64,000 nt of DNA from an uncultured Phycisphaerae bacterium. GTDB taxonomy: Bacteria > Planctomycetota > Phycisphaerae > Sedimentisphaerales > Anaerohalosphaeraceae. Position numbers and translations under genes: made by a program. Each line of letters opens with the position of its first letter. Position 1 is the first letter of the stretch. Positions 14,077 through 59,012 of this stretch are shown piece after piece. The notes under the pieces were generated by a model that was not told where the DNA came from, made no database searches, and was given only the letters and a program-made list of their open reading frames with translations. The stretch spans positions 1-64,000 of the forward strand of contig CALEDR010000030.1 of assembly GCA_937949545.1 (NCBI GenBank). Direction: 5' to 3'.

Positions 14077-14115
14077 GGGCACACCCCCAAATGAAAAATC
14101 CGAAATCCGAAAAAA

Positions 14116-41664: not shown

Positions 41665-43742
41665 CGGACCATATTCAGACCGGACATCTGCTGCTGAATC
41701 AGCTGCAGCGTCCTCTCCAGCCGTGCATATTGATTCTTCAGACGCGTCTCCACCCGGCTGAGCCGCGATTCCTCCCGGCTGATCTGGCTGTTCGTGCTGT
41801 CAATCCGGCCCTGCACACTTTTCTGAACCAGCGGCACACGCCCGCCGCCGACCTTCAGCAGATTGTCCACGGTATCGTACAGACTGCCCGCAAAGCCCTG
41901 TTTGAGACTCACCATCGCCTCAAAGGTCCCGTCCTGCGACGGATCCACCGTCAGCACCAGGCTGTATTCCGGATATCTCGGATACCCGCCGCTGCTGGTG
42001 GTTTCCGTACTCCCATACAGGGTATTGCCTTCAATCCGCATCGAACGAGCCGCCGTCCAGTCCTCTGTTTTGAGCTTAATCTGGGCAGAGGCAATGACCC
42101 CTCCCTCCACCGTCACCCGCACATCATATTGTCCGCCCTGGGTGTAGCTGCTGGCCTGATAAAATTTGATGGTATTCGAATTGCTCGAGCCTGTCTTTGT
42201 GGCCCCGATGAGAGACAGCACCCCCTGATAATCCTCCACCAGGGCCTTTTCGAGTTTGCTGCTGTCCAGCATCAGAGTCCCGTCGGCCTTGAACTTCAGC
42301 CCGATATCTGCCGACTTGACAAAGGTATCTTTGTCCGTAAAGCCGGCTGCATTAAAGAGAAGCGGCGATCGAAGCAGACTCGTAATCGTTGTCAGACTGT
42401 ATTCCGAAGACAGAATTCCCGTCTTCTTTTCCTTTTCATTATACGTTGTCTTTTCTTTCAGAAAAGAAACTGCCGCGTTATACGCATCCACCATCGCCTG
42501 CAGCTTATCTTTCAGTGTGGTCGTGTCGCGGTTGAGCGTCACTTCCACAGAACGGTAGCCGTCGGTGTCATTGCCGGTAGCACTGTGCAGATTCAGCGTC
42601 ACACCCGCAATCACATCATCAATCGTATTGGTGCTTCGGCGAATCCAAGTGTTTCCATCCGCATCATCTCCCAGCGGATATCCATCCACCTTAATCAGTG
42701 CATCCTGAGCCCGCTGGGTTTCCAGAAACGTGGAGGGAGCCAGCAGCGCCAGATTCGAAACAGTCGAACCGCCGACCGTCGTTTCCGTAAAGGTCGGAGC
42801 CGTCCAGACCGCCGAAGAGCCGTCGCCGGGCACCAGCTGCAGCGAAATCGATAAATCGCTGGCCCCGCTGGTTCGGTCCGTCAGAATCAGCGCCCCCTCT
42901 TCCAGCCGAATGCGGACCGTTCCTCCATAGGCATTTTCTACGGCACTGATGAGCTCTTCCACCGTGGTGTACTGATTGACCTCAAAAAATGATTCCACCG
43001 GCGTTCCGTCCCGCAGGGTCCCCTGAATCCGAATCCGGTCCGGCGTCGAACCCGTCCCGAAGCCCGAGCTGCCCTGCAGCTGGGACAAACGCGTAGTCAG
43101 CGAGGCATTTTTCCCGTTGGTTGTTTTCAACACGGACGATGTATGAACATCTGTATTGCTCGAGTTGATCGAAATCTGATAATTGGACCCGCTTTCCCGA
43201 CCGCTCAAAACCAGATGATACCGGCCGGCAGGCGACTGATAATCCAGGATGCTCGCCGTAATTCCCGGATTATCCGGGTCATTGTTAATCAAATCCACAA
43301 GCTCCTGCAGTGTCGTTGTCGCGGTAGTCTGAACCACAAATTCTTTGCTGTCATACGACAAAATCAGATTCCCTTCGCCGACATACTGCGTTTTGTACTG
43401 AAAGCCGTTATGAACCCAGCGATTGGCCGTAGCCAGCTGGCGAATCTTTACATTGTGCGTTCCCTCAAAGGCACTGCCGGAGGCCGTGGCCGTCAGCATA
43501 TCTTCGTTGCCCGTCTTGGCCTGATAAGTACGCAGCTGACTTGAATCCGACAGCGCACTCAGCGCCGTCCGAAACGACGACAGCTTGCTGTTTAAATCGC
43601 TCACCGCCGTCCGTTTCTCTTCCAGAGTCTTCAAACTCGACTGCAGACTGCTCAGACGGCGTCGCTCAACCTTCATCAGCTGCTCCACAATCGCCGCTGT
43701 ATCAATCCCCGTCGAAAGGCCGGTCAGTTGTATAGAAGACAT
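41661..43742 (-). CDS. fliD: flagellar hook-associated protein 2 (filament cap) FliD
   Basis: 693 residues from ATG 43742, chosen because GGGGA lies 5 nt upstream; a TTG 39 nt earlier extends the frame. The N-terminal domain has IQLTGLSTGIDTAAIVEQLM and a coiled coil (about 25-60). The C-terminal D0/D1 region is helical (SRVETRLKNQYARLERTLQL, QQQMSGL). The middle has beta-rich insertions. FliD caps the filament and guides flagellin folding. It is the last gene of the minus-strand flagellar/glycosylation array. Its stop is interleaved with the stop of the convergent FlhA-like gene. Confidence 0.95.
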   Translation of the reverse strand: MSSIQLTGLSTGIDTAAIVEQLMKVERRRLSSLQSSLKTLEEKRTAVSDLNSKLSSFRTALSALSDSSQLRTYQAKTGNEDMLTATASGSAFEGTHNVKIRQLATANRWVHNGFQYKTQYVGEGNLILSYDSKEFVVQTTATTTLQELVDLINNDPDNPGITASILDYQSPAGRYHLVLSGRESGSNYQISINSSNTDVHTSSVLKTTNGKNASLTTRLSQLQGSSGFGTGSTPDRIRIQGTLRDGTPVESFFEVNQYTTVEELISAVENAYGGTVRIRLEEGALILTDRTSGASDLSISLQLVPGDGSSAVWTAPTFTETTVGGSTVSNLALLAPSTFLETQRAQDALIKVDGYPLGDDADGNTWIRRSTNTIDDVIAGVTLNLHSATGNDTDGYRSVEVTLNRDTTTLKDKLQAMVDAYNAAVSFLKEKTTYNEKEKKTGILSSEYSLTTITSLLRSPLLFNAAGFTDKDTFVKSADIGLKFKADGTLMLDSSKLEKALVEDYQGVLSLIGATKTGSSNSNTIKFYQASSYTQGGQYDVRVTVEGGVIASAQIKLKTEDWTAARSMRIEGNTLYGSTETTSSGGYPRYPEYSLVLTVDPSQDGTFEAMVSLKQGFAGSLYDTVDNLLKVGGGRVPLVQKSVQGRIDSTNSQISREESRLSRVETRLKNQYARLERTLQLIQQQMSGLNMVR

Positions 43743-43833
43743 AGGTTTCCCCGTTCGAACTATCTTGCCGAAATTTGACAACTATCCTATTTTAAATTAT
43801 CGTCATCAGACTCCTTTCTTATAATCTTGTCTC

Positions 43834-46800
43834 TTAAGCTCGGCCACACATCTGAAAAACCGGTTCTTTATCCGGATGGTTCGCTTCCAGCTGCAGGAGG
43901 ATTTGCTGAAGCATTTGCCGGCAGTCCTCGGACAAATTCAGCGTTTTATCGGACAGCAAATCCCGACATATCCGAACCGCTTGCCGGACATTCTTCTCTC
44001 CGATTGCTTCCTGTATAAGATGGAAACCTTCTCGGACCAAAATTTCCGCCCTTTTTTGTCTGTATTTTTCGGCACATTGGGCAAAAATTTCTCCGTTTCT
44101 GTCCGCATAGGTCTCCGCATGTTTCTCAAAAATGGAAACCACATAATCCCAAAAAACCCGCCGGCGATCAAATGCATCGCGCACCGTCGCCACAGACAGA
44201 CACAGCTGCTCTGGAGAATATCGTTCGAGCATTTCCTCCAGACATCGAACCGTAATGGAATGACGCTGCTGAAAGCAGACCGTGTTGGCACCGGACAACT
44301 TTCGATAGAAATAGTCGGCAATCCCCCCGACCATTTGAAACCGTATCTGAGAACCGCAGCGGCACAGAAAGTCAAAATCCTCCACATTGTCCAGCTCTCT
44401 GTACAGTCCGGTCTTTTCGAACAGGGCCCGCCGCTTCAGCGAGCCGGCATTCGGAATCGGCGAATTGCCCCGCGCAAACAGCAGCGCCGGCAGAGCCGCA
44501 GAGCTCTCGATCGGTTCATATTTCCAGAGAATTCCGGTCGGCCTGCCGAATTCATCCACCAATGTCAGTTTTTCAGGGTAATAATAATCATATGCCGGAT
44601 TCTGCACGGCAAAAGCAACCATCCGCTTCAGATAATCCGGTCCGATGAAATCATCCGAATCAATCATCATTACAAAATCGCCGCGGGCCTTTTGAATTGC
44701 CCGATTTGCGGCAGCCGCCGCATTTTTGTGCGGCTGAGAGAAAAATCGTATGCGCCGGTCCTGAAAGGACTGCACCACAGCCGCCGTCCCGTCTGTACTG
44801 CCGTCATCCACAATAAGCAGCTCAAACTGTTCATACGTTTGAGTCAGAACTGATTCGATTGCCCGCCGGATAAACCGCTCTGTGTTGTACGCCGTCATAC
44901 AGATACTCACCAACGGAGTCGAATCCAGCCGGGGACGCACATCAGAAGTTGATGAAGAAGGCGGCGGCACTGAGTTGGGTTCAGATGCCACCGCATATTG
45001 GCCGAGAACACCGTGCTCTTTCAGAACAGAGACGACCTGCCGAATTGGGGCATCTACTGCCATCCACAGTACGATTTCGCTGACTGTCTGAGAACGAACT
45101 GCCGGCGGAATTGCAATCTTCTGAACCAGCAGTTTCCGGTTTTCCCGAAGAAGCCAAACCAAAAACTGAATATGGAAATCCTTCTGAAGAGCTTCCCGAA
45201 GCCGCCAGATAAATACCTCCTTCGGATTCCGTTTCTCTTCGGCGGCCGCCGACTGACTTCGCCGCCAAAGAGCGTTGATTTTAGCCCGTCCCCAGTACAG
45301 CCATCCGGAAGCAGGCTGATGACTCCCAAGACTCAGCGAGTTCGGCAGCTGGCGGATCAGATACAGCGGCTCCGGAACAAACCAGATGCCTGTCACCTCC
45401 TCCATCTTATGATAGATATCTTTGTCCTCTGCGCTTTCCAGTTCGACATCGTGCATCGGGGTCCTGAAATAATCCTTCCGTTTGTAGGTGCGAAATGCGC
45501 TGATAAAACCGCCTGCCTCCAGCGTCGTCTGATCGGGAGGAATCGGCCGGCAGAAACCGAGCCTTATCGGCTTCAGGTCCCGGTCGCAAAGAATGTGCTG
45601 CGCATAAATAAAGCCGCATTCGGGATGCGCCTCGTGGGCCTCGAGCATCCGTTCCAGAGCCCTCGGAAGCAGGGCGTCATCACTGTCCAGTTCTCCGAAT
45701 ACCTCGGCTCGAACAGCCGCTGCACCGGTCAAAATCGCCTGCGAGGCCCCCCGCTGAACCGGATGACGAATCAGCCGGATGCGCGGGTCGGACAAATAAG
45801 ACTCCATAATTTCCACAGAGTTGTCTGTCGAGGCGTCATCGACAATAATCAATTCCCAGTCCGATACCGTCTGAGCCAGAACCGACTCGATGGCCTGACG
45901 AATGTACGGCCCTTTGTTGTAATTGCGCATAATCAGAGAAAAACGGGGTCTGGAGCCGTCTGACGGCTTCCGGAGGCTTTCTTTCACGCCTGAAATGGCA
46001 TTGGGACCCTTGTCCGCTGCCGGGTTCTGAATCCCCCCAGCGGTTTCCTCCGATTCCGGCACAAACGGACGGCGAATGTATCCGCAGGCATTCGCGTACA
46101 GAGCACGAATCTGCTCATCTTCGCCTCTGCCGGCCCCGGAACTGTTTTCAATGCCGTTGGGATTCTGGTAATACAGCCCCAAAACCTCCGGCACAAGCAT
46201 CAGTCTGCGGGTCTGGGAAATCCGCAAGGCAAACTCGTAGTCGCCGGAGGACTTCAGCCGGCCGTCAAAATAGCCGTATTCTTCATGCACATCCCGACGC
46301 CACATCGGCTGCGGACCGCAGTAATATTTCTTCAACAGCAGCTCCCGCGAATACGGCGGGAGCTTCATCACCCGAGAGGGCGTCTTGTTCTGCCAGGTCT
46401 GATTGGGAATTCGGGTGACATAAAAATAGGAATACACATAGCTGACATCCGGATTCTGCTCCAGAACCGAGGCCAGTTTTTCCAGCATGTCCGGCGCATG
46501 GCGGTCATCCGTATTGGCATTGGTTATGTATTTTCCTCCGGCCAGCCGGATTCCCCGATTCCACGCCGCATACACCGTTTCCCGCTCCTCCGTGCGGACA
46601 TACCGAATGTTCGGATAGCGGGCCTGAAATTCCTGAATAATTGCTCGTTCGTTCTGCCTCGAGCCGCTGTCCACAACAATGATTTCCATCTTTCCTTTTT
46701 GGAAAAGCGTCTGTTCAACCAGGTCCTGCAGACATCCGCGGATGAATTCCTCGCTGTTGCAGGCGGAAACAATGGCGGACACCAGACAGTCCCCGCTGCC

Positions 46801-49800
46801 TGCGGCGTACAGAGACTGGCCCAGAACATCCTCAATATCCAGACCCCGGAAATACTCGGGCCCGTATTGCTTCAGCCAATCCCGAACCTGCCGTTCATAC
46901 CAGGGATTGGGGCGCTGATACACCGTCGGGTCAAAATCGGCATAGTGCCGGAGCCACTCCGGATCCGCCGGTTCCAGATGAAGGTCCCGTTCATCCTTGC
47001 TGGGGGCATAGAGTTTGTTGATCTCCGCCGCGGACTTCTGCGGGTTGCGAATCCGCTCCAGGCAGCGATACCACGCCTGCTTCCAAAGCAGATTGTTCCA
47101 GTTGACGAACTGAAAGTGCAGCACTCCGTGCGAATATCCTTTGAAAGTTAATTTCCGTCCTCTCAGATTGGAAGGAACGCGCGGCGTGTGGATAAAATCA
47201 GAGGCATACGAACACCGCCCGTCGTCGCAAAAGACAAAGGGTTTGTAGTTATGGGTCCAGACCGACGCGTCCCGGCGATACTGGTGCAGACTTCGCCACA
47301 GAGCAATCCAGTTCATCCACAAATGGTCTCCGGGCTGCATCGCCAGAATCATTTTCCGCAAAAAATTGTCCGTCAGACAATTGGAAGTGAACGCCTCATC
47401 CGCATCCAGAATAATAAAATGAGTCCCCCCGATTTCCCGGCCCGCCTGAAGCACCCGGTTTCGATCGCCCGGTTCGTCCCGGTACCAGCGATCTTTGGTC
47501 AGAATCCGTTCCACCCGGCAGGTTTCCGCCAGACCCCGGACAACCTCCAGCGTCCGGTCTTCCGAACAGTCATCCAGAAACACAATTGCATCCGTAAAGT
47601 TTGACAGCAGACGAAGGCATTGCCCGATGATCGGTTCCTCATTCCGCGCCGTCACCAGCCCCACAATTTTGGGCCTTCGTTCCGACAGCTTTTCTGCTTC
47701 CGGGGCCGGCCGGATGCTCAAATATGGTTTCATTCGGAGTACATCCGCTTTGTCTTTCGATTCCGCTCGGTTCATCTTCATTCGGAATAATCCTTGCAGC
47801 GAAACAAACTTCAGCCCTTCATAATAAAAATGATTCTCCGGATTAAAAACGGTATCCTCGAGCGGCTCTTGGTAATAAACGGCCTCTTTGTTATGGCTGT
47901 CGAGCCGACAGGAAGCTTTTGTCGGCAGGGCCTCATATCCCACATGCAGGTAATCGATGTCCTGCGACGGCCGGATCCCATAAACCGCCATCACTGAACT
48001 TCCGTCAATGCAGAAACACTCCGGGTCAACACCGCTCTCCTCCAGAAGCGCTCGATACTCCTGCAGATGATGATAAAACGGTTCAAAATAGACCAATTCA
48101 GCATGATTGAGAAAATGGATGCTGTTCTCGTTAAAACACACCCCAGCCAGCTGAAGGGTTTCTTCGTACGAGTCATTAATATGAACCGCATTCTGATTCA
48201 AACCGAACAGAGATCGAATCTCCTGTTTGCAGCTTCGAACCGCCTCCGGAGAATCCGCTTCAATCAGATACACCCGAAGCGGCCCCCTCCCGCAAAAACA
48301 GTTGACGGCCTTGTCCTTACATCCCCGAAAACCGTCGGACGGACTGCCGAGCCAGGGCTCACCCAAATAGGCCTGTTTGATATAGAAAAACGGTCCGTTC
48401 TTCCTCAGAACCAGTTCTTTTCGATACACAAGCCGAGCATAACGGCACAGAATGGAAACAATCTCTTCCTCCCCACCCTCGGCACACGGAAATACGGATA
48501 CAATATATGTATTTTTCTTGATTTTGCAGTATTCATAGGCCATCGCATCCGCATATTTGGGCTCCAGACCTCGTTGCAGAAACCATGAAAAATCATACCG
48601 GCGAGCCGAACGGTCAAAGACCGCTGTGTCCACATTCTGCCCGGTCACATAAGCCGCCGCCACTCGATGGCCGCCGTCTATAATCACTCCATCCTGACCG
48701 ACCGGAAGAAGCGAGCGGTTCGGGTCGAACCCATGTGCCGCGAAAGACTCCAGCAGAGAATTATACCGCTTCAAAAAAATGTCAGGACCTGTCTTGCCGG
48801 ACCCATCTTCTTCAAAAAAGTTATTGAAAGCCCTCAAGTGAGCCAAATAAATCCGCCGACCCCAGTCGCTGTTCAGCCGCCTGCGGAAAAAGCGTCCATA
48901 GATAATTTTGGCCATCAGGTCAAAACGATGGGCATGAATCAGTGCGGACGGGCAAATCCGCTGTTTTTTTGCAAGCCCTTCTTCCGGCAGATACCCGATT
49001 CGGAAGAGAGCCGGATTGAGCAGAGGACGAATCTCTTCAATCCGGTGAAAAGACTCTTCCAACGGCCTTGCCTGCCGAATTCTCTGGTTCAGCCACAAAG
49101 CGTTGCCGCTGCCGTTTCCGAATTGATGATTGAGCCCGATTCCGGCCAGCACAAAACCTCGCCCCGCCAGAAATCCCTCCAGATCAATCAGCCGGGCCTG
49201 TCCCTCATACAGCGTTGCGTAGGTCCACACTTCCAGAAACACAGCACAGCAGTTGGCCAGAACCCGCCTGGCCCCCTGCAGCACCGACAACTCCGCCCCC
49301 TGTACATCGCACCACAGCAGGTCCACCGTCTTGTTTTTCAGCGGCTCAAACTCATCCAGTCGAATGCACTCTACGGTAAACGTTTCCTGAGACCGAATGC
49401 CGAACTGTTCGGCTGTTTTCTGTCCGAAGTCTCCGCGGGGATCGGACCGAAGCGGCAGAAGAGACCCCGTCCCCGGCAGGTTGTTTTCATAAAAAACCAT
49501 CGTCCCCTTCCGGTTGGAAACCGCAAAAAGGTAACAGTGAACCCGCTCCTGGCAGCGGTATCGCTGTTCGAGCAGGGCAAACATCTTCGGATTCGGCTCA
49601 AAGGCAAAGATTTCCGCATGGGGATACCGCTGGAGAAGCCGCTCGATTTCCTGTCCCAGGCAGGCCCCCACAATGACAATCCGCAAAGGCGTGTCCGACG
49701 GCTTGCCGACCAGAGAACACAAATTCTCTTCGACATCCTCCTGAATTTCCTGATACGGCTCCTTCCGCTGCCCTGAGTAGTTTTTCGCAGCCACACCGCC

Positions 49801-50991
49801 CCGAATCGGCTGGATGTCGGCCAAAAACAAATCCTGCCGGTTGTCCCATATCAGACTGTATCCCTGCGACGATACATACCGAAGAATCTCCTGCCGCCGT
49901 GAGCCGTATTCCGCTACAATCAGCTGTGGCCTGTACTTCGCAAAATCCAGTCCCCGCAGCACTTCCCAGTCATGTCCCTCTGTATCAATCGAAAGCAGCG
50001 CCACATCTTCGAGCCCCTGTTCCTCCAGAATCTCCGTGAGGGTCCTGGCTTCCACCGTCTCCTTTTTCCAGCGCGCCCCGTAGGTCTTTGTCCAGCGGTC
50101 CCTCTCCGCGCCGTCCAGCGAAGCCACATCACTGCCCCAGTCCGGCAGATGCGGATACTCCGACACATGCAGATCAACCGGCCCGCTCCGGTCGGATACA
50201 GCCGCCCGAATACATCGCACATCCCAGCCCAGCCAGGCCCGCCGCAGTTTCCGGAAATTCATCTCCGCCGGCTCAATGCACAGCCCCGTCCAGCCGTACC
50301 GCTCCGCCAGCCGACGGACATTGCTGTAATGAATCCCGTCAAAGGCGCCCACATCGACGAACACTTTACAGCGGGCTTTTCGCTCCGCAAAATACTGTTC
50401 AATCACCGCATCCTGTCCGTTCTGAGCATAATAACCGCGCAGATGCTTGGGCAGTTCCCGTGCATACCAGAATTCCGGATTCAGCGCCAGCACTGTCCTG
50501 CAGGCTGCTTCGACCGCCTCCGTCCGGCCCAGCTTCGCCGCCGCCAGCGCCATCAGCCAAAAATATCTCCCGTTCCTTGGGGATTCAGCGGCCAAATTAG
50601 AAGCCGTGCTCAGGAGATGCTCAAACAGACAGGACGGATAGGCCCGCAGGCATGGGTCCTGAAGAATACGAACGGCCTCCTCTGTGCGGTTCCGAAGGTA
50701 GTCCGACAAATCTCCTGTATGGGCCTGCACCGAGGACACCCAGGCATGGAAAAAGGCAATCTGCGCATCGGACGGCTCCAGCCGAAACGCCGTCTCCAGA
50801 GCCGTCCGGGCCTCCTTCAGCTCCTTTTTAAGCAGAAACGCCCGCCCAAGCGAATAAAAGGCAAAAGCATCCGCCGGCTCCGTCTTCAGCCGGGCTGCAC
50901 AGTCCCGGCAGACAGGCTCCGCCTCGCCCCGAGCAAGGTGCCGTTCAATCTTTTCTATCCAGTCTGTTGGAATAGACAGCGCAGTTTTCAT
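43834..50991 (-). CDS. giant multi-enzyme glycan-modifying protein: TPR, 2x FkbM methyltransferase, ParB-like, nucleotidyltransferase-like, 4x GT2
   Basis: 2385 residues in one frame. TPR-like helices cover about 1-180. FkbM methyltransferase 1 covers about 209-362 (VFVDVGAFDG, SIDTEGHDWEVL) and FkbM 2 about 435-615 (IVIVGACLGQEI, DVQGAELSVLQGA). A region of unclear fold has a ParB-like motif near 770 (GQDGVIIDGGHRVAAAYV). A nucleotidyltransferase-like motif lies near 1004 (GSSVMAVYGIRPSQDIDYL). Four GT-A (GT2) domains begin near 1112 (VGLVTARNEE, LDADEA), 1407 (VSAIVSACNSEEF), 1685 (SLIMRNYNKG, DSDD) and 2030 (VSICMTAYNTERF, DSDD). A helical tail closes it. There is no signal peptide. It lies between a FliT-like gene and fliD in a flagellar array, so flagellin or a cap/hook protein is the likely acceptor. 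The acceptor is inferred, not shown. Confidence 0.85.
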   Translation of the reverse strand: MKTALSIPTDWIEKIERHLARGEAEPVCRDCAARLKTEPADAFAFYSLGRAFLLKKELKEARTALETAFRLEPSDAQIAFFHAWVSSVQAHTGDLSDYLRNRTEEAVRILQDPCLRAYPSCLFEHLLSTASNLAAESPRNGRYFWLMALAAAKLGRTEAVEAACRTVLALNPEFWYARELPKHLRGYYAQNGQDAVIEQYFAERKARCKVFVDVGAFDGIHYSNVRRLAERYGWTGLCIEPAEMNFRKLRRAWLGWDVRCIRAAVSDRSGPVDLHVSEYPHLPDWGSDVASLDGAERDRWTKTYGARWKKETVEARTLTEILEEQGLEDVALLSIDTEGHDWEVLRGLDFAKYRPQLIVAEYGSRRQEILRYVSSQGYSLIWDNRQDLFLADIQPIRGGVAAKNYSGQRKEPYQEIQEDVEENLCSLVGKPSDTPLRIVIVGACLGQEIERLLQRYPHAEIFAFEPNPKMFALLEQRYRCQERVHCYLFAVSNRKGTMVFYENNLPGTGSLLPLRSDPRGDFGQKTAEQFGIRSQETFTVECIRLDEFEPLKNKTVDLLWCDVQGAELSVLQGARRVLANCCAVFLEVWTYATLYEGQARLIDLEGFLAGRGFVLAGIGLNHQFGNGSGNALWLNQRIRQARPLEESFHRIEEIRPLLNPALFRIGYLPEEGLAKKQRICPSALIHAHRFDLMAKIIYGRFFRRRLNSDWGRRIYLAHLRAFNNFFEEDGSGKTGPDIFLKRYNSLLESFAAHGFDPNRSLLPVGQDGVIIDGGHRVAAAYVTGQNVDTAVFDRSARRYDFSWFLQRGLEPKYADAMAYEYCKIKKNTYIVSVFPCAEGGEEEIVSILCRYARLVYRKELVLRKNGPFFYIKQAYLGEPWLGSPSDGFRGCKDKAVNCFCGRGPLRVYLIEADSPEAVRSCKQEIRSLFGLNQNAVHINDSYEETLQLAGVCFNENSIHFLNHAELVYFEPFYHHLQEYRALLEESGVDPECFCIDGSSVMAVYGIRPSQDIDYLHVGYEALPTKASCRLDSHNKEAVYYQEPLEDTVFNPENHFYYEGLKFVSLQGLFRMKMNRAESKDKADVLRMKPYLSIRPAPEAEKLSERRPKIVGLVTARNEEPIIGQCLRLLSNFTDAIVFLDDCSEDRTLEVVRGLAETCRVERILTKDRWYRDEPGDRNRVLQAGREIGGTHFIILDADEAFTSNCLTDNFLRKMILAMQPGDHLWMNWIALWRSLHQYRRDASVWTHNYKPFVFCDDGRCSYASDFIHTPRVPSNLRGRKLTFKGYSHGVLHFQFVNWNNLLWKQAWYRCLERIRNPQKSAAEINKLYAPSKDERDLHLEPADPEWLRHYADFDPTVYQRPNPWYERQVRDWLKQYGPEYFRGLDIEDVLGQSLYAAGSGDCLVSAIVSACNSEEFIRGCLQDLVEQTLFQKGKMEIIVVDSGSRQNERAIIQEFQARYPNIRYVRTEERETVYAAWNRGIRLAGGKYITNANTDDRHAPDMLEKLASVLEQNPDVSYVYSYFYVTRIPNQTWQNKTPSRVMKLPPYSRELLLKKYYCGPQPMWRRDVHEEYGYFDGRLKSSGDYEFALRISQTRRLMLVPEVLGLYYQNPNGIENSSGAGRGEDEQIRALYANACGYIRRPFVPESEETAGGIQNPAADKGPNAISGVKESLRKPSDGSRPRFSLIMRNYNKGPYIRQAIESVLAQTVSDWELIIVDDASTDNSVEIMESYLSDPRIRLIRHPVQRGASQAILTGAAAVRAEVFGELDSDDALLPRALERMLEAHEAHPECGFIYAQHILCDRDLKPIRLGFCRPIPPDQTTLEAGGFISAFRTYKRKDYFRTPMHDVELESAEDKDIYHKMEEVTGIWFVPEPLYLIRQLPNSLSLGSHQPASGWLYWGRAKINALWRRSQSAAAEEKRNPKEVFIWRLREALQKDFHIQFLVWLLRENRKLLVQKIAIPPAVRSQTVSEIVLWMAVDAPIRQVVSVLKEHGVLGQYAVASEPNSVPPPSSSTSDVRPRLDSTPLVSICMTAYNTERFIRRAIESVLTQTYEQFELLIVDDGSTDGTAAVVQSFQDRRIRFFSQPHKNAAAAANRAIQKARGDFVMMIDSDDFIGPDYLKRMVAFAVQNPAYDYYYPEKLTLVDEFGRPTGILWKYEPIESSAALPALLFARGNSPIPNAGSLKRRALFEKTGLYRELDNVEDFDFLCRCGSQIRFQMVGGIADYFYRKLSGANTVCFQQRHSITVRCLEEMLERYSPEQLCLSVATVRDAFDRRRVFWDYVVSIFEKHAETYADRNGEIFAQCAEKYRQKRAEILVREGFHLIQEAIGEKNVRQAVRICRDLLSDKTLNLSEDCRQMLQQILLQLEANHPDKEPVFQMCGRA

Positions 50992-51037
50992 CGGACTTTT
51001 CCCCGGCTGTTTCTTCGAGTCAATTCAGCCCTCGTGC

Positions 51038-51382
51038 TTATTTCCCATAAGCCGACAGCGTCCGAATCCCCTCCCGAATCTGCCGCAGTTTGTCCGCCAC
51101 CTCCTGCCGTTCGGCGGCAATCACTAGACAGATGTCCTGATACAGTCCCTGGATTTTCTGCCTGCAGGCCGCATATTCAGGCCGCTCCAGAATCCCTTCC
51201 CCGGCAAGCCGTTCGGCAAACCGATGCGACTCCTCCGCCAGCCGAACCGCCCCGTCCAGGTCATACCGGCGCAGCTTCTCCAGCTGCCGTTCCAGCAGCT
51301 CGGTCAAATACGCCAGCTTCCGTCGGTCTTCTGTCGTCCCTTCGGCCGCCTGAATTCCCGTACAATCCGCCGCTTTGCTCAT
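51038..51382 (-). CDS. small helical protein, FliT/FlgN-like export chaperone candidate
   Basis: 114 residues, predicted nearly all helical (LTELLERQLEKLRRYDLDGA, RQEVADKLRQIREGIRTLSA, ending YGK). Length, acidic/basic heptads and the ending resemble FliT or FlgN chaperones, which hold FliD, FlgK or FlgL before export. It starts inside the TPR gene stop (ATGA) and is 46 nt before the giant enzyme; fliD comes next after that. A FlgN-type gene is already present at 61096-61605, so this one would more likely serve FliD or flagellin. Recognition is by form and context only. Confidence 0.55.
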   Translation of the reverse strand: MSKAADCTGIQAAEGTTEDRRKLAYLTELLERQLEKLRRYDLDGAVRLAEESHRFAERLAGEGILERPEYAACRQKIQGLYQDICLVIAAERQEVADKLRQIREGIRTLSAYGK

Positions 51383-52008
51383 CGCTCATTCCCGCCTTTC
51401 TGTTGGGCCTTGTGCTCCAGTTCCTCCAGCAGCTGCCGAGCATCGGCATGCTCCGGTTCCAGCGCCAGAATATCCTTCAGCAGCTCCTGTGCCTGCCGCG
51501 TTTGGCCTTCCCTTGCATACAGCGCCGCCAGACAGAACATCACCGATGTGTCCCCCGGATGCATCTGCAGATACACCTGCAGATAGTGGATAACCTGGCG
51601 AAATGTCCCCATCTGGCAGGACACTTGAAACAGCCCCAGCAGCGCCGTCAGATGATTGTTGTCCAGTTCCAGACTCTTCAGATAATAATCAAACGCCTCC
51701 TGCAGCCGTCCGCACTGCTGGGCAATCATCGCCAATCCCGCCCAGGCCCGGCTGTTGCACGCATCCAGCCGAAGCGCCACCCGAAACGCCAGTTCTGCAT
51801 CCTCCAGCCGCCCCTGCTGCAGTTCAATCACGCCGGTGCCCACATACGGCCCCGCCTCATCCGGCTCCAGCCACGAGGCTTGCTCATAGCATCGGCGGGC
51901 ATTCTCATATTCGCCCACCGAGGCATAACAGTCTCCCAGCTCCTTGACAATCTCATACCGCTGCATCCATCCCTGATCGGGATTCTGCAATGCACCCGCT
52001 AAATCCAT
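51379..52008 (-). CDS. TPR protein of the flagellar glycosylation array
   Basis: 209 residues made of about five tetratricopeptide repeats (KELGDCYASVGEYENARRCY, GTGVIELQQGRLEDAELAFR, AMIAQQCGRLQEAFDYYLKS, AALYAREGQTRQAQELLKDI). There is no signal peptide or membrane helix. AGGAGAG precedes ATG 52008, and the start overlaps the GT2-TPR gene by 10 bp. It probably acts as a scaffold for the glycosyltransferases or their protein acceptor, since TPR segments recur in the proteins around it. Confidence 0.85.
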   Translation of the reverse strand: MDLAGALQNPDQGWMQRYEIVKELGDCYASVGEYENARRCYEQASWLEPDEAGPYVGTGVIELQQGRLEDAELAFRVALRLDACNSRAWAGLAMIAQQCGRLQEAFDYYLKSLELDNNHLTALLGLFQVSCQMGTFRQVIHYLQVYLQMHPGDTSVMFCLAALYAREGQTRQAQELLKDILALEPEHADARQLLEELEHKAQQKGGNER

Positions 52009-53654
52009 GGTCGGCTCTCCTGGCTTGACAGCACCGGCTCGTCTGCGGCCGGCTTGGCTGCTCTTCGTCGAATCGCTGAAGTCTGCGTTTTTCTCGCCTC
52101 CGTTCCATCCAAAATCCGACAGGCGCGCTGGTAGCAGTCAATCGCCCGCCGGCAATCCTTTTGCTCCTGAAAGATGCGGGCGGCCAGCTGCAAAGTAAAA
52201 ACCGTCGGCCGGACCGTCTGCACCGGCTCGAGCACTTCCAGCGCCTGCCGAAAACGCCCCGCTTTGTACAGGGCGTACGCCTGCTGGGTCCGCATCCACA
52301 ACTCATTCCCGAAATGCTCCGCCAAATAGGCATACAGGGAAGCAGCGGATTCCCATCCCCCCTCCCGCTGAAGCTGTTCCGCCGCCGCCAGCATCCGGTC
52401 AAACTGAAACGGATAGTCCTCCGTCTTCGGCCTGCGAATCGAAAAGCCGGCGGCCTCCAGCGATGCCCGCAGAGGCAGACGGCCGTACTGCCGACGGGCC
52501 TGCCGAAGTTCCGCTGTACGGAAAACCGCCCCCCAGCCGCCCTCGGTCGCCTCAACCAGCTCAAACGCCTCCCGGGGCTGTCGGCTGTTCAGCAGCGGAC
52601 AGAGAGAGCGTTCCAGCCATGCTGTTTCATCCATCTCCGCCGAAAGACCGGCCGGAACCACCGCGGCATACGTCCCTTCGCAAACCGACAGCATCCGGTC
52701 CAGACGCGCTTCGAGAGAGCTGCCCGCCTCCGCCGGCACAATCGTCACATTCGGAACCAGCGTATGCCAGCCGGCAGCCTCCTCCGGCGCCAGCGCTGCA
52801 TAAATCCGCTGCGGATAAAAGGTATGCGACCACAAATCCCGAAGCGTCCGATCCAGCGATTCATCCGCACGAGCCGTCAAAATCAGAACCGACAAATCCT
52901 CCACACACGGCCACGGCTTGGGCGGACGTGTGGTCCGGATGGTCAGCACATTTCGAAGATAGTCCGAGACATTTTTCCGGCGCCGCACGGAAATCCGGTC
53001 GCTGTCGCCGACCGGGGTATAGTATTCCCCCGTAATTGTCGGAACATGAAGGAAATCCGTATAAAAACAAAGTTTCCGATGCAAATCCCAGTCTATCAGA
53101 ACATTCAGATTTTCGTTGTATCCCCCCGCCCGCTCCAGCAGTTCCTTGCGGTGCAGAATGCTCACATGAAGCACATGATTAAACTGAAGCATCATCATCC
53201 GGTCAAAATCCCGTGAGACCTCCACGTGCTTGCCGAGCACAATCCGCCGCCCGTCCGGCCTGACGCGGCAGTACACCTTGTACAAATCGCTGTACACCGC
53301 CCCGCAGCGGTCCTGACTTTCAACCGCCCGGACCAGCGTCTCCAGATGATGCGGGTAATACTTATCATCGTCATCCAGATGGCACAGATACTCTCCGCGG
53401 GCATAGCCCAGCGCCTCATTAAACGAATACCCCGGCCCGCGGTTTTCCGAACGGTTGATAAAGGTCAGCCGGCGGTCTGAAAACCGCCGCACCACCTCAT
53501 CCACCGGACAGCCCCCGTCCCGAACCAGCACAATCTGAAAGTGCGGCCAGGTCTGAGCAAACACACTTTCCAGCGCCTCGGCCAGATACCCGGGCCGGTT
53601 GTATGTGTTCATCAGAACCGTCACCAGCGGACCATGTTGAGAACGTCGAACCAT
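51999..53654 (-). CDS. GT2 family glycosyltransferase with C-terminal TPR-like repeats
   Basis: 551 residues. A GT-A domain covers about 8-230 (VTVLMNTYNRPGYLAEALES, the metal-binding LCHLDDDDKYY, then LIDWDLHRKL). A second, divergent domain of similar origin covers about 260-420 (LSVLILTARADESLDRTLRD) but lacks a clear DxD motif. TPR-like helices cover about 435-525. There is no signal peptide, so it acts in the cytoplasm with nucleotide sugars. It starts 7 nt after the GT9-like gene. Donor and acceptor sugars cannot be read from the sequence. Confidence 0.85.
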   Translation of the reverse strand: MVRRSQHGPLVTVLMNTYNRPGYLAEALESVFAQTWPHFQIVLVRDGGCPVDEVVRRFSDRRLTFINRSENRGPGYSFNEALGYARGEYLCHLDDDDKYYPHHLETLVRAVESQDRCGAVYSDLYKVYCRVRPDGRRIVLGKHVEVSRDFDRMMMLQFNHVLHVSILHRKELLERAGGYNENLNVLIDWDLHRKLCFYTDFLHVPTITGEYYTPVGDSDRISVRRRKNVSDYLRNVLTIRTTRPPKPWPCVEDLSVLILTARADESLDRTLRDLWSHTFYPQRIYAALAPEEAAGWHTLVPNVTIVPAEAGSSLEARLDRMLSVCEGTYAAVVPAGLSAEMDETAWLERSLCPLLNSRQPREAFELVEATEGGWGAVFRTAELRQARRQYGRLPLRASLEAAGFSIRRPKTEDYPFQFDRMLAAAEQLQREGGWESAASLYAYLAEHFGNELWMRTQQAYALYKAGRFRQALEVLEPVQTVRPTVFTLQLAARIFQEQKDCRRAIDCYQRACRILDGTEARKTQTSAIRRRAAKPAADEPVLSSQESRPWI

Positions 53655-53661
53655 CTCCGTC

Positions 53662-54561
53662 TCACAAAACAGATTCTTCAGCGGGCTTCTCCTTCGTCCA
53701 GGAAATCTTGAGCCGTTCCGCCGCCTCCAGCACCTCCTGCGGCTGAGCCGGACAAACAGACACCATTCCGCTGCCCTCCTTCATCGGCCAGCAGTCCCAG
53801 GAATTCTTTCCCAGATACACCATCGGCAGGTGAATTGCCGCCGCCAGCGCCGCAATCTCCTCATCCTCGCTGATCAGCAGCTCACACTGCCGCAGAACCG
53901 TTGCAATCTCACGGGCCGTCAGCTTGCCGCGAAGGTCCTTGGCCTCCGGAGCCGCCGGACCGCTTCCTCCGCCCACATACACAAGACTGGCCCCCCATTT
54001 TTCTTTCAGAAGACGCCCCACTTCGGCCCCCTGAGACGACAGCCAGCTCGGACAGTCCGCCGATATCGGCGCCAGCACAATACGCGGACGAGCCAGTTTC
54101 GACAGGCCGAACCGCTGGGATCGGACAAAATCGAAACTGTTTAAAAGAATCTGAGGCGTCTGCTGCTCCAGACGCACGCCCAGCTGTCCCGCCGCATCAA
54201 ACATCCAGTCCATACCGGCTCCTTTCCGCGGTGCACCCCGCAGGTATATCACCTTGTCAAACGATTCCTTCAGCTCTCCGGCATCGCCGTAGGCCAGACC
54301 GCGTACCCCGGGATGCCCGATGTATAAATCCGCATATTCATGGCAGATGGTAATTTCCTGCTCCGAGGCGAACGTCTGGCCGAACAGCCGAATCGCCGGC
54401 TCGGCCAACAGGGCCGCCAGCAGCCCCGCCGGCGGCACAATCAGCACCCTGCGAAGGGCTCGCTCGGAACCCGCCGGTCCGTCTAACCTGCTCGGCGGTT
54501 CCGCCGACAAAGCAGACGTTTCCGCTAAAAAGGGGCCGCAGAAGGACTCCTTCCCGAACAC
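53662..54561 (-). CDS. GT9/heptosyltransferase-like protein
   Basis: 299 residues of a GT-B form. The N-terminal Rossmann start is RRVLIVPPAGLLAALLAEPA. The C-terminal half carries SWLSSQGAEVGRLLKEKWGA, YVGGGSGP and a late CELLISEDEEIAALAAAIHLP, as in GT9 proteins (ADP-heptose:LPS heptosyltransferases). The frame opens with GTG 54561 and overlaps the previous gene by 37 bp. The first 35 residues look unlike the family, so the true start may be further in. The presence of a GmhB-type phosphatase at 23741-25261 makes heptose a possible donor, but this is a guess. Confidence 0.65.
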   Translation of the reverse strand: MFGKESFCGPFLAETSALSAEPPSRLDGPAGSERALRRVLIVPPAGLLAALLAEPAIRLFGQTFASEQEITICHEYADLYIGHPGVRGLAYGDAGELKESFDKVIYLRGAPRKGAGMDWMFDAAGQLGVRLEQQTPQILLNSFDFVRSQRFGLSKLARPRIVLAPISADCPSWLSSQGAEVGRLLKEKWGASLVYVGGGSGPAAPEAKDLRGKLTAREIATVLRQCELLISEDEEIAALAAAIHLPMVYLGKNSWDCWPMKEGSGMVSVCPAQPQEVLEAAERLKISWTKEKPAEESVL

Positions 54562-56207
54562 GAGCAGACCAACTCGTTTTCTTCCGAGGAAGCCGAACTT
54601 CCCGAACTCTTCAGCCGCTGCGCCGCCTCCAGTGCCCTCCGGGCCAGCTCCTCAATCGAAGCCGAGACCGCCGGCTGCGAACCAGCCGCCGCCGGTTCCG
54701 ACGGCTGCGGTCGGACGGAAGTCGGCGAAGAAACAGAGACTGCCGGCTCCAGCGGTCTGGATGCACCGGTCTGCACAGAGCCCGGCATCGGCGAGCCGCT
54801 CTCCTTTCTGTCCGAAACAAAAGTCAGACTGCGTTCCAGCTCCGAAAGAATCCGAACCAGCGGCAAATACGCCTGGATCGGGGAGAAGCGGTTGATTACC
54901 CAGGTGCGGTAGCGCATCGGTTCATATGCTCCTTCCAGAATCTGCCGGCAGAAATCTTCCGCCAGAACAAACACAAACTCCTTCTCCACATATTCGCAGA
55001 CCCCCGGGAAATGATGAACAACCGGACGCAGCCCCGCCGCCATCCCCTGAAGAACCGACGGCATCGCCCGACCGTCCACCGCCGCCGATACGATATAATG
55101 CTTATCCTTCAGCCACCGGGCCCAGTTGCGGGGAACTCCGTCCAGAAAAACGACATTTTCCAGCCCCATTGTCTCAATCAGGGACTCGACATAAGCCCGC
55201 ACGCTCTCATCCTCAAATTCCCCGGCCAGATGCAGCCGCATATCCGCATCCAGATAATGGAGCTTCTGCATACACTGAAGCAGAAACATCGGATTCTGAT
55301 GAGCCGTCCACGGTCCGACGGCCGCCAGCCGTTTGCCCTTTCGGCGTTCGGCAAATACAACTGTCTCGGCATCCACACCCGGTCCCATCGTCAAAAGCTG
55401 CACAGAGGAAGGAACACCGCCCAAACGCAGACGAACCTGCTCCGCCGCCGATTGGGAAGGAAGCAAAACAGCACGAACACCCGCCCAGTCTATCCGTTCC
55501 AGCGCCGGATGATTCAGGTCCTCATAGTCCAGAACCAACACGGCGGGGACGTCGCGACGCCGCTCATCCAGAAAGGCCCGGCTGATGCCGGCAAACATCG
55601 AAACGCTCCGTAAATGCCTCCCCTCCAGCGCAGCAGACGTTTGCCCGCCGATACTTACTGACAGCGGATATCGAGTCTCCAGATACTCCCGAAGACCTTC
55701 CAGACGCCGCTCCTGCTCGGCATGCAGACAAATCGAAACCCGTTTGCGGCGGATAATTTCAATCATCGGACGAAGGATTTCCTGATTCGGAGCCAGCCGC
55801 AGCGAATACAGCAGCATTTCAATCGCCGGCCCCAGGGAACCCTTGTCCACGAAACAATTTGCTATCCGATTCAGTGTATCCACATTCAGAATGTCTCGGT
55901 CCGCCATCTCATCCAGCAGTCCGACGGCCTTTTCCGGCTGATGCTCGGCGATATAGGTCTCACACAGATTAAAAAGAACCTGCGTGAGCATGTCGCCGCT
56001 ACACAGACTGCGGGCCTTCTGGAAATATTCGACTGCCTCGCGGCCCCGATGCAGACAATACAAAATCGTACCGGCGTCATTGAGGGCTTCCGCATCGTTC
56101 GGCTGCTCCCTCAAATATCCCTGCAGAAGCCCCAAAGCCTGCTCATAACGTCCCTGTTCCGCCAGTTCCGCGGCCTGTCTGACCGCTTGTCTATCGTGTC
56201 CTGACAT
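54525..56207 (-). CDS. TPR + GT4-like glycosyltransferase with altered EX7E motif
   Basis: 560 residues from ATG 56207, set by GAGGAG 7 nt upstream. TPR repeats cover about 1-110 (QGRYEQALGLLQGYLREQPN). A GT-B domain covers about 140-440 and is clearly related to the neighbour at 56362-57810 (both have NPMFLLQCM and MAAGL.PV.HFPG). The GT4 catalytic EX7E pattern, intact in that neighbour (ESQGMGALE), reads DGRAMPSVLQ here. This suggests changed or lost catalysis. The last 90 residues are a Pro/Ser/Ala-rich tail. A sigma-54 promoter match lies about 50 nt upstream. Confidence 0.82.
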   Translation of the reverse strand: MSGHDRQAVRQAAELAEQGRYEQALGLLQGYLREQPNDAEALNDAGTILYCLHRGREAVEYFQKARSLCSGDMLTQVLFNLCETYIAEHQPEKAVGLLDEMADRDILNVDTLNRIANCFVDKGSLGPAIEMLLYSLRLAPNQEILRPMIEIIRRKRVSICLHAEQERRLEGLREYLETRYPLSVSIGGQTSAALEGRHLRSVSMFAGISRAFLDERRRDVPAVLVLDYEDLNHPALERIDWAGVRAVLLPSQSAAEQVRLRLGGVPSSVQLLTMGPGVDAETVVFAERRKGKRLAAVGPWTAHQNPMFLLQCMQKLHYLDADMRLHLAGEFEDESVRAYVESLIETMGLENVVFLDGVPRNWARWLKDKHYIVSAAVDGRAMPSVLQGMAAGLRPVVHHFPGVCEYVEKEFVFVLAEDFCRQILEGAYEPMRYRTWVINRFSPIQAYLPLVRILSELERSLTFVSDRKESGSPMPGSVQTGASRPLEPAVSVSSPTSVRPQPSEPAAAGSQPAVSASIEELARRALEAAQRLKSSGSSASSEENELVCSCSGRSPSAAPF

Positions 56208-56258
56208 CTTCAAACTCCTCAAAGAGATTGATAATCCGCATCCATATCACCGCGCTTG

Positions 56259-56274
56259 TGCAAATCTTATGCCC
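56259..56274 (-). promoter_or_regulatory. sigma-54 (-24/-12) promoter inside the glycosylation array
   Basis: On the minus strand GGGCAT-AAGAT-TTGCA: GG (56273-56272), ten bases, GC (56261-56260). The elements fit the RpoN consensus apart from the first base (G for T) and the T that closes the -24 block. The start of transcription would be near 56247, about 40 nt before ATG 56207, in the 139-bp gap between the two GT4-like genes. Confidence 0.7.
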
Positions 56275-56361
56275 GACTTCAAAATCGCCCCTTTTCGACG
56301 AAAACAAACCCATTTCCCACCCTATGAACCGACCCTTTGTCAAATCTTCAAACACCCTCCT

Positions 56362-57810
56362 TCAAATCGAAACAGGTTGAGTCGAAACGTCCTGTCGCTG
56401 CCCTTCAAACCGGCCCTGTTCGAAGGAGGTCAGCAGTTCATCAACCAGACGGAGAGTCCGGCTTATCGGATATCGCCTCTCTACAAACTCCCGATAGGCA
56501 TACGGTTCATATTCGTCCGATAATATCTGCTGGCAGAACTCTTCAGGCGTTGTAAACAGATAATTCTTATCGTAAATTTCTTCCGCCCCGGGAAAATGAT
56601 AAATCACCGGTTTCAGACCGGCTGCCATCGCCTCCAGCGCCCCCATCCCCTGACTTTCAATCACGCTGGTTACCGCCAGATAATGTTTGTCGGCAAGCCA
56701 GGAGAAAATATCCTCCTGCCAGCCTTCAAAATGAACAGACCCTTCTAGACCCAGAAGCCGAATTTGATGGTCCAAATACTGTTTCAAAAGCAAATCATCC
56801 ATTCGCCCAGCCATATACAGCTGATAATCCGGTTCTATCTGATGCAGCTGATGCATACACTGGAGCAGAAACATCGGGTTCTTGACCATTCGGAGATTTG
56901 CCACAAAGGCAATCTTTTTCCCTCGCTCCCGCCGGACAAACGGTATCCTGTCCACATCGACTCCATTGGGAATCCGGACAATTGCCACCTGTTTTCGGAT
57001 ATCGGCCTCCCACTCTTCGAGGGCCTTTATCACATAAGAATTCCCGACTGTAACCAGCACATCCACATTCGGCCAGTGAATCTGTTTAGGCCAAGGCATA
57101 TAGGCTTCATAGCGATGCAGCCGAACCACAATCCGGCAGGTCTTCGGCAAATGCGTACCGATCTGGGCCAGATTCGTCGCCCACTCAAACCAGGAAATAT
57201 CGCTCCAATTCATCAAAGCCTGCACATCCTCCGGACGGGAACCGCTGAAAACCCGAACCGGATAACGCTGCCGGAGATAGTCCAGAAGCGGCTTGAGAAA
57301 TGTCGGACCGTCCGCCCCGCAGAAGAAGGCCAGCTTAGGCCGGCAGGCCTTCAGCTGTTCAATCGGCGCATCATAAATCAAAGGGTCTTTTGATGCGCTG
57401 CGGCCTATTTGAAACACATCCATCGCACGAGCCGGCTGATGCCGACGGAGGAAACAGCCTGCCGTTTCCAGAACCGCCGAATCCCGCCAGACACCCTCCT
57501 GCCGCATCCGACGAAGCAAACCGGCGGCCTGGTCCGGACGATTCAGCTTCAGCCAGACCTCCGCCAGGTCGGCCAGCGCCTCCTTCGGACCGTCCAGCAA
57601 AGAAAGACACCGCTGAAAACACCGAACCGCCTGACGAGAATCCCCTTCCGCCATTGCCAGCCGGCCCGCCAGATGCCAGCCTGGTCCGTAGGAGGGACGC
57701 AGCCGTAAATAGGAATCCAGGCAGGACCGGGCGGCGGAGATTTGTCCCTCCTTCGCCAGACGCACCGCCTCCTGATACAGTCGAGTCGGAGATTCTGTTT
57801 CCGCTGACAC
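56362..57810 (-). CDS. TPR + GT4 glycosyltransferase
   Basis: 482 residues from GTG 57810, with AAAGGA eight to ten bases upstream. TPR-like helices cover about 8-130. A GT-B domain covers about 155-460 (IPNGVDVDRIPFVRRERGKK, NLRMVKNPMFLLQCM). The EX7E catalytic motif is intact in VIESQGMGALEAMAAGLKPV. It is cytoplasmic. It starts 14 nt after flgL and is probably read through from the flgA-flgL transcript, which ties the array to the hook-filament junction genes. Confidence 0.9.
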   Translation of the reverse strand: MSAETESPTRLYQEAVRLAKEGQISAARSCLDSYLRLRPSYGPGWHLAGRLAMAEGDSRQAVRCFQRCLSLLDGPKEALADLAEVWLKLNRPDQAAGLLRRMRQEGVWRDSAVLETAGCFLRRHQPARAMDVFQIGRSASKDPLIYDAPIEQLKACRPKLAFFCGADGPTFLKPLLDYLRQRYPVRVFSGSRPEDVQALMNWSDISWFEWATNLAQIGTHLPKTCRIVVRLHRYEAYMPWPKQIHWPNVDVLVTVGNSYVIKALEEWEADIRKQVAIVRIPNGVDVDRIPFVRRERGKKIAFVANLRMVKNPMFLLQCMHQLHQIEPDYQLYMAGRMDDLLLKQYLDHQIRLLGLEGSVHFEGWQEDIFSWLADKHYLAVTSVIESQGMGALEAMAAGLKPVIYHFPGAEEIYDKNYLFTTPEEFCQQILSDEYEPYAYREFVERRYPISRTLRLVDELLTSFEQGRFEGQRQDVSTQPVSI

Positions 57811-57824
57811 CGCCGAAATCCTTT

Positions 57825-59012
57825 CTATTTCAGAAAATCCAACAATGAGGTCGAGAAAATCTTTGAAGCCGCTGTCAGCGACATCTCATACAGCAGCTGA
57901 TGACGCGCCAAATCAATGGACAGCTGGGTAATATCCGCATCCAGCAGGCGGCTGATTTCATCTTCGGAATTGACTTTCATATTCTCCATACTGTCTTTGA
58001 GGTTTGTGAGCGTTTCAATCCGCCCCCCGATAATCGGAAACGAGCGCACCAGCTTCTCTTCCACCTCCTGCATCGAAACCAGTATCGCCCCCAGCAGATT
58101 CTCCAGCGTCTTGTCGTCCAGGTTCTGCGAATTGTTCAGCAAATCGCGGGCGGAAATCAGAATATTGAAAATGTCATAGGTACCGGGGATACGAACCGGC
58201 TCTGTTCCTGTCTGTCGAATTTCACTGACATCCACATACAGAACCTCTCCGGTCTCAGAATGAATGACTGCTGCATTGGTCTCCGTTCCGGCGACCGTCA
58301 CCCAGGAAGCCCCTCCGTCAATGGACAGCCGCCAGCTGCCCGGCCCCCCCTCCACCGTCAGATACAAATCCCCGCGGACACTCGACGTGCCGCTGCCCGC
58401 CTTCACGCCCGTGGACCCGTAAAAAACGGGTGTCTGCCGGCTGTCATCCCGAAACAGACGATCCCCCACCAGCAGGGCCGAAATCTCCATCCCGTCAATC
58501 ACCTCCACCTTCTGCTCCTCCTGGCTGCCCTGATACGTTACCCGGACAATCCGGCCGTTTCCGTCCCGTTCGACAGTATACGGCGCCTGTTCGGCTTTCG
58601 CCCCTCCGAACAGGTACTGACTGAGCCGGGTGGAGTTAGCGAACGAAATGACCTGTTCGAGCGCATTGTTGATTTCGGCCGCCAGTGTGCGCCGAACCTG
58701 GGAATTTGTTGTCCCTGACATCGTAGACGCCAGCGAGGCACGGGCGTTGGCCATCTCCTTCATTATGCTCTGTACCACAGACGAACTCAGGTCCAGAATG
58801 CTGACAGCCTCCCCCATGGTTTTGACATAAACTTCTTTCTTCCGCTTGTCAGTCTGAAAACCGAGAATCTGGTTGGTCCGGCTCGGGTCATCCGATATCC
58901 GATTCAAATCCTGACCCGTGGCCGCCTTCTGCTGAAGAATATTCAGCTTCTCCGAATGCCGGGTGACAGCCCAATAGGTTGTTTTGAATATCGATTCGAG
59001 GGAATAACTCAT
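57825..59012 (-). CDS. flgL: flagellar hook-associated protein 3 FlgL
   Basis: 395 residues. The flagellin-like N-terminus reads YWAVTRHSEKLNILQQKAAT, then GQDLNRISDDPSRTNQILGF. The C-terminal helix reads RLLDADITQLSIDLARHQLL, then YEMSLTAASKIFSTSLLDFL. The variable middle (about 140-270) is beta-rich. FlgL joins the hook-filament junction to the filament. GAGGAG precedes ATG 59012, and the gene follows flgK by 26 nt. Confidence 0.95.
   Translation of the reverse strand: MSYSLESIFKTTYWAVTRHSEKLNILQQKAATGQDLNRISDDPSRTNQILGFQTDKRKKEVYVKTMGEAVSILDLSSSVVQSIMKEMANARASLASTMSGTTNSQVRRTLAAEINNALEQVISFANSTRLSQYLFGGAKAEQAPYTVERDGNGRIVRVTYQGSQEEQKVEVIDGMEISALLVGDRLFRDDSRQTPVFYGSTGVKAGSGTSSVRGDLYLTVEGGPGSWRLSIDGGASWVTVAGTETNAAVIHSETGEVLYVDVSEIRQTGTEPVRIPGTYDIFNILISARDLLNNSQNLDDKTLENLLGAILVSMQEVEEKLVRSFPIIGGRIETLTNLKDSMENMKVNSEDEISRLLDADITQLSIDLARHQLLYEMSLTAASKIFSTSLLDFLK

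Follow-up and report, generated by a model that had tools for sequence, protein, structure and literature searches.

An uncultured Phycisphaerae bacterium (GCA_937949545.1) carries seven genes between the flagellar genes flgL and fliD that, judged from sequence, probably form an island for the glycosylation of flagellar subunits by soluble proteins in the cytoplasm, one that expanded around a flagellar core of two genes. The island occupies positions 43834-57810 of the minus strand of the window, i.e., the 64,000-nucleotide stretch of contig CALEDR010000030.1 analysed here, and the host genome comprises 2.84 Mb in 52 contigs. The observations behind this reading are the gene order and its conservation, the presence of the core in loci free of glycosyltransferases (GTs), the loss of catalytic residues in a protein under selection, variable sugar genes in relatives, and the absence of membrane proteins. 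A flagellar glycosylation island had been proposed in the initial annotation, and the proposal is supported by conserved synteny, co-occurrence with fliD, nonulosonic acid (NulO) genes in the corresponding position of related genomes, and the lack of polysaccharide-export membrane machinery.

Organisation and conservation of the island

On the minus strand, flgI, flgJ, a gene for an FlgN protein (PF05130 match, 4e-14), and flgK precede the island. The following genes, several of them encoding tetratricopeptide repeats (TPRs), are listed in their order on that strand, including both borders.

57825..59012, minus strand: flgL (P0006), hook-filament junction protein and upstream border, directly after flgK; Pfam Flagellin_N 3.1e-9; also borders the module in relatives
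56362..57810, minus strand: TPR-GT4a, N-terminal TPRs and a GT4 domain; Pfam GT4 2.7e-17; E385-x7-E393 and K310 intact
54525..56222, minus strand: TPR-GT4b, a GT4a paralogue that lacks the catalytic residues; Pfam 4.3e-7
53662..54561, minus strand: GT9-like protein; Pfam GT9 E = 0.12
51999..53654, minus strand: GT2-TPR; Pfam GT2 3.6e-23
51379..52008, minus strand: TPR-only protein; Pfam TPR matches to 7e-20
51038..51382, minus strand: FliT-like protein, small and helical; its gene overlaps the TPR-only gene by 4 nt
43834..50991, minus strand: giant TPR/FkbM/GT2 protein of 2385 aa; four GT2 and two FkbM stretches in Pfam
41661..43781, minus strand: fliD (P0007), filament cap and downstream border; Pfam FliD_N 2e-24, FliD_C 1.5e-38

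All seven island genes named in the initial annotation are present in this interval, while the left edge it gave, 46000, cuts through the giant gene. The short spacings and overlaps it described hold as well. From flgI onwards, the gaps between neighbours are -4, -4, 29, and 26 nt, followed within the flgL to fliD part by 14, 139, -37, 7, -10, -4, 46, and 52 nt. No sigma-70-like site was found on the minus strand between 43500 and 59100, which is compatible with a single transcript but no proof of one. A search for a sigma-28-like promoter pattern likewise found none.

The relatives surveyed comprise 58 genomes, searched with GT4a (P0005), fliD, and the TPR-only gene. Genes resembling GT4a or GT4b occur in 25 of the 43 relatives with fliD and in one of the 15 without (Fisher p = 6e-4), and the TPR-only gene in 34 and one, respectively (p = 1e-6); both tests treat the relatives as independent, though they are not. 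Nine genomes possess fliD and no TPR-only gene, five of which belong to one family (f5), while four are 68-88% complete. In the f5 genomes L060, L069, and L070, a FliD of about 1050-1180 aa is encoded beside FliS, with no TPR/FliT-like pair.

In the regions of relatives that were read out, the block flgL, GT4a, GT4b, (GT9), GT2-TPR, TPR-only, and FliT-like is conserved. Dozens of genomes share this arrangement, too many for chance to account for it. The content between flgL and the TPR-only gene varies across the 63 loci in which flgL is visible: six contain nothing, ten a TPR stub, six one GT4 without GT2-TPR, and 41 sets that include GT2-TPR. The stretch from the FliT-like gene to fliD measures as little as 3 nt and as much as about 38 kb; long stretches end in giant GT2 genes. 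Its length is bimodal, with at most 329 nt in 23 loci, none of which has GT2-TPR, and at least 3.2 kb in eight loci, all of which have it; GT2-TPR therefore comes together with the extension region. Encoded in this variable region of relatives are NeuB/PseI, LegC/PseC-type aminotransferases, NeuD, methyltransferases, and formyltransferases. Sugar and GT genes are located inside a flagellar cluster with conserved borders, and their content varies among relatives. "Inserted", as the island was initially described, is one of two possible directions of change. The flgL-stub-TPR-FliT-like-fliD module, otherwise seen in Phycisphaerae, also occurs at L151:4219-7466 on a contig labelled Candidatus Kuenenia stuttgartiensis, which is probably a mislabelled or mis-binned metagenome-assembled genome.

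GT2, GT4, GT9, and FkbM families are also typical of loci for surface polysaccharides, i.e., lipopolysaccharide (LPS) O-antigen, capsule, or exopolysaccharide, and the flagellar location could then be coincidental. Several proteins match models of exopolysaccharide or colanic-acid GTs, all far below the cut-offs, and the giant protein of one relative contains a Capsule_synth domain. This explanation is nevertheless improbable. In a simple hydropathy scan, which predicted six spans for FlhA, four for FlhB, and five for FliP as controls, at least two membrane spans were predicted for none of the seven island proteins and none of 50 proteins from the variable regions of relatives. Since multi-spanning proteins are lacking among these 57, a lipid-linked surface polysaccharide such as LPS or capsule is unlikely; the island shows no sign of a flippase, polymerase, or phosphoglycosyl transferase, and the locus does not resemble a Wzx/Wzy or ABC locus. 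Moreover, different genera share both the location and the association with fliD, and the TPR/FliT-like core is also present without GTs.

The TPR-only/FliT-like core

Scanning relatives with an alignment of the TPR-only protein identified 80 named loci, almost all of which carry the label Planctomycetota or that of a lower taxon (uncultured Phycisphaerae). In 77 of these, the TPR-only gene has the FliT-like gene as its direct neighbour. Both are present in the six loci with neither GT nor stub, and in the ten whose sole extra is a stub matching the TPR part of GT4b. As the pair is kept in GT-free loci, its members are flagellar rather than glycosylation genes. Among about 240 genomes sampled from the phylum, with scoring limited to the top 12 candidates in each, the core TPR family was not found outside the order.

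The TPR-only protein is under the strongest constraint of the locus, with a ratio of nonsynonymous to synonymous substitution rates (dN/dS; here and below, window genes against two relatives) of 0.06-0.085 and 29 invariant columns in 22 sequences. Assignment as a type III secretion chaperone of the SycD/LcrH type was rejected, with 64.6 bits for TIGR02552 against a cut-off of 104.8 and higher scores for other TPR models.

The FliT-like protein is best read as a putative chaperone of the FliT/FlgN type. In the window, its Pfam FliT match is weak (E = 0.019), while 22 of 53 homologues match FliT (PF05400, best 1.4e-6) and 12 of 53 match FlgN. The predicted model consists of three helices with a pLDDT of 78.5. 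Compared with the Protein Data Bank (PDB), it resembles FliT (3a7m; probability 0.97, TM 0.67, Foldseek E = 0.9, not significant) and the flagellin assembly related protein 5gna (probability 0.90, TM 0.61, E-value likewise not significant). FliT and FlgN are related chaperone families.

Alternatively, the pair could be a regulator coupling late-gene expression to export, with the GTs as secondary users. Salmonella FliT has regulatory partners. In addition, GmaR unites a GT2 domain, TPRs, and an antirepressor (PMC9638930). A DNA-binding or antirepressor-like part is absent from both core proteins, and the place directly before fliD suits a substrate chaperone, which renders the regulatory explanation unlikely.

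TPR-GT4a and its paralogue TPR-GT4b

GT4a and GT4b share 29% identity across most of their length. At the positions of E385, E393, and K310 of GT4a in the window, GT4b carries G, Q, and Q. Across the 13 two-copy loci (window included), GT4a always retains the GT4 lysine and both glutamates of E-x7-E, as expected of an active GT4 enzyme. In GT4b the lysine is lost in 13/13, both glutamates in 11/13, and one glutamate in the other two, although all 13 reading frames are intact. GT4b is therefore a predicted pseudo-glycosyltransferase. An aspartate one residue off may compensate for a lost residue.

The fold has been kept. The predicted structure of GT4b comprises a TPR part (residues 10-160) and a GT-B part (161-470) with a pLDDT of 86, and residues 157-466 of the model match BshA and similar GT4 enzymes with a Z of about 27. 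Foldseek matches of the model include the TPR-bearing OGT/SPINDLY. In GT4a, dN/dS is 0.165-0.18 for the TPRs and about 0.11 for the GT domain, whereas GT4b shows 0.09-0.12 for the TPRs, 0.19-0.25 for the catalytically dead GT domain, and 0.82 for a nearly unconstrained C-terminal tail. These values indicate that purifying selection still acts on GT4b, most strongly on the TPRs; as GT4b has a lower dN/dS there than on the GT domain, constraint has shifted to the TPRs.

In a GT-domain tree built without the catalytic columns, intact GT4a proteins form one clade that includes two recent losses (L122, L149), while the other eroded copies fall outside. As most dead copies lie outside the GT4a clade, the divergence is old. 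The two exceptions, at L122:8350-9891 and L149:8327-9838, are lone GT4a-type proteins in which the GT4 lysine was recently lost, possibly as independent moves towards a pseudoenzyme.

GT4b, together with the GT9-like protein, could instead be a functionless relic of old duplications in decay. The lost catalytic residues of GT4b, its nearly free tail, and an eroded motif in the GT9-like protein fit such decay. Intact frames and constraint on both domains of GT4b speak against it, as does the old divergence of the dead copies. Furthermore, an eroded protein of the GT4b type is the sole GT4 of the block in eight loci, and other loci keep the TPR part alone as a stub. In three relatives, these stubs match the N-terminal TPRs of GT4b (42-47% identity) over those of GT4a (21-25%). 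Decay is accordingly considered unlikely, and a retained pseudo-glycosyltransferase is preferred.

Distribution of the TPRs

TPR-like repeats had been noted in at least four island proteins. Matches are present in five, namely GT4a, GT4b, GT2-TPR, the TPR-only protein, and the N-terminus of the giant, with those of GT2-TPR and the giant below the Pfam cut-off. The accompanying idea of shared TPR segments did not hold, as clear paralogy is limited to GT4a and GT4b. Apart from this pair, a single duplicated unit was rejected: the GT4a TPRs score 17.9 bits against the GT2-TPR repeats and 26.9 and 21.6 bits against TPR proteins elsewhere in the genome. Of the suggested assembly line, in which TPRs gather enzymes and acceptor, the idea of TPRs as binders of acceptors or partners is plausible by the precedent of FlmG and Maf-1. 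The TPR-only and FliT-like proteins do not belong to such a line as enzymes, being a flagellar core that GT-free loci retain. Evidence for complexes consists of fusions, with GT2-TPR joined to TPR in one genome (L093) and GT4a to GT9 in another (L133), which hint at physical closeness of the partners.

GT9-like, GT2-TPR, and giant proteins

The GT9-like protein is probably weak or inactive, as its D-x4-H-like motif reads D-x4-A; homologues in relatives match Pfam GT9 with 1e-11 to 1e-16. Fused proteins with a GT9 part include TPR-methyltransferase-GT9 (L098:3226-5130) and TPR-GT4-methyltransferase-GT9 (L133:5613-8423). GT2-TPR (551 aa) consists of a GT2 domain (residues 12-132), a degenerate middle, and C-terminal TPRs at about 430-515, and its DDD motif is kept in nearly all of 20 homologues.

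The giant is the variable part of the island, and different giants take its place in relatives of the same genus. It comprises an N-terminal TPR part, the two FkbM methyltransferases, a middle without Pfam match, and the four GT2 stretches. The middle spans about 470 residues (640-1115; window 47647-49074, minus strand) and contains GSSVMAVYGIRPSQDIDYL, which by eye resembles a nucleotidyltransferase motif.

Proposed pathway and acceptor

From the locus we infer an acceptor, the order in which sugars are added, physical complexes among the proteins, and a hand-over to chaperone and export. The core, in which a TPR protein and a FliT-like export chaperone would be translationally coupled, would take charge of a substrate that is exported late, with FliD as the most likely one and flagellin or FlgK/FlgL as possible others. 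TPR-GT4a and GT2-TPR would initiate the glycan on the subunit destined for export, with the catalytically dead TPR-GT4b, by analogy, as a partner that binds or presents the acceptor. The FkbM/GT2 giant would extend and methylate the glycan, and the decorated subunit would pass via the TPR/FliT-like pair to the flagellar export gate. Flagellin, FlgK/FlgL, and FliD are unproven acceptor candidates, of which FlgL and FliD are the neighbours of the island.

Several points weigh against flagellar glycosylation. The flagellins are encoded on another contig (C3) beside fliS and are minimal (271-272 aa). The island in the window has no glycan-biosynthesis genes of its own, and NeuB was rejected for this genome, as the sole NeuB-family match is weak, partial, and not convincing. 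Family f5 of the same order has fliD, adjoining fliS, without the TPR/FliT-like core; this one family has another solution. The FliT assignment is based on weak sequence matches and on a resemblance in fold whose E-value is not significant, and a conserved gene order is by itself no proof of function.

The two minimal flagellins are located at G000:C3:16616-17026 and 97109-97516 (L153, L154), each with its own fliS nearby. No GT beside them is evident from the starts of open reading frames, with no profile search made there.

Comparison with known systems

Caulobacter flagellins are minimal, as are those here. The TPR part of Caulobacter FlmG binds flagellin (PMC7591256), and Maf glycosylates prior to hand-over to the chaperone (PMC4065374). 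FlmG and Maf-1, the latter as cited in PMC13317340, resemble the island enzymes in joining a soluble GT to TPRs. The island differs in its GT4 and GT2 domains and in its two TPR-GT4 paralogues, one of which lacks the catalytic residues. A Maf flagellin GT was rejected, as PF01973 (now MptE-like) has no match in the genome, a modest test since no known Maf is present in the control genomes, nor among the Pfam matches of the island.

In GtfA/GtfB, one GT-B partner serves as chaperone and acceptor binder. This O-GlcNAc transferase of serine-rich adhesins, also named Gtf1/Gtf2, is a two-protein GT complex (PMC5207161). It has no TPRs, and the active/inactive split of GT4a and GT4b is derived from sequence. 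GtfA/GtfB is absent from the fold matches listed, which carries no weight in either direction. Maf-2 has a co-encoded factor, GlfM, as cited in PMC13317340, and belongs to another enzyme family than GT4a and GT4b.

Listeria GmaR, which acts on flagellin, likewise has an N-terminal GT2 domain followed by TPRs (PMC9638930), but is longer than GT2-TPR (637 vs 551 aa), in which the repeats are confined to the extreme C-terminal end. GmaR is absent from the PDB sequence matches of GT2-TPR (P0002) and was rejected as its relative. FliT, the export chaperone of FliD, is a small protein of three helices encoded beside fliD. The FliT-like protein shares the size, the position and, in its predicted model, the three helices; it differs in its weak sequence similarity and in being nearly always paired with a TPR protein.

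Geobacillus and Clostridium also contain variable sugar-biosynthesis and GT genes within the flagellar cluster; in Clostridium, fliD closes the hypervariable region, within which fliT may be present and NulO genes are frequent (PMC5109656, PMC13317340). The present island differs in its location between flgL and fliD, its occurrence in Phycisphaerae, flagellins encoded elsewhere, a genome without a PF01973 match, and a fixed TPR/FliT-like core that persists without GTs.

Other features of the window

A large, secreted-looking protein is encoded at 11551-14082 (minus strand), with a dockerin/EF-hand-like repeat, ADFDGDGRISIADLGQMACVW, recognised by eye. Genes resembling extracytoplasmic function (ECF) sigma factors, also found by eye, lie near it at 581-1120 and 23068-23619.

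Significance

Flagellar glycosylation is hardly studied in Planctomycetota, and a full-text literature search for it gave only unrelated papers. The locus belongs to a known kind, the flagellar glycosylation island; its fixed core and conserved pseudo-glycosyltransferase are unusual. Tentatively, and with less confidence than the glycosylation function itself, the TPR and FliT-like proteins may constitute a clade-specific export chaperone to which TPR-adaptor GTs were recruited. One paralogue would have become an acceptor-presenting pseudoenzyme, in some lineages reduced to its TPR alone, and glycosylation would be coupled to export by an undescribed adaptor system. The pair of active and dead GT4 proteins is a clear case in which to study the role of a pseudo-glycosyltransferase, with selection on the dead protein strongest at its TPR. 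The natural series from bare TPR/FliT-like core via TPR stub and one TPR-GT4 to the full island makes the tie of glycosylation to flagellar export directly testable.

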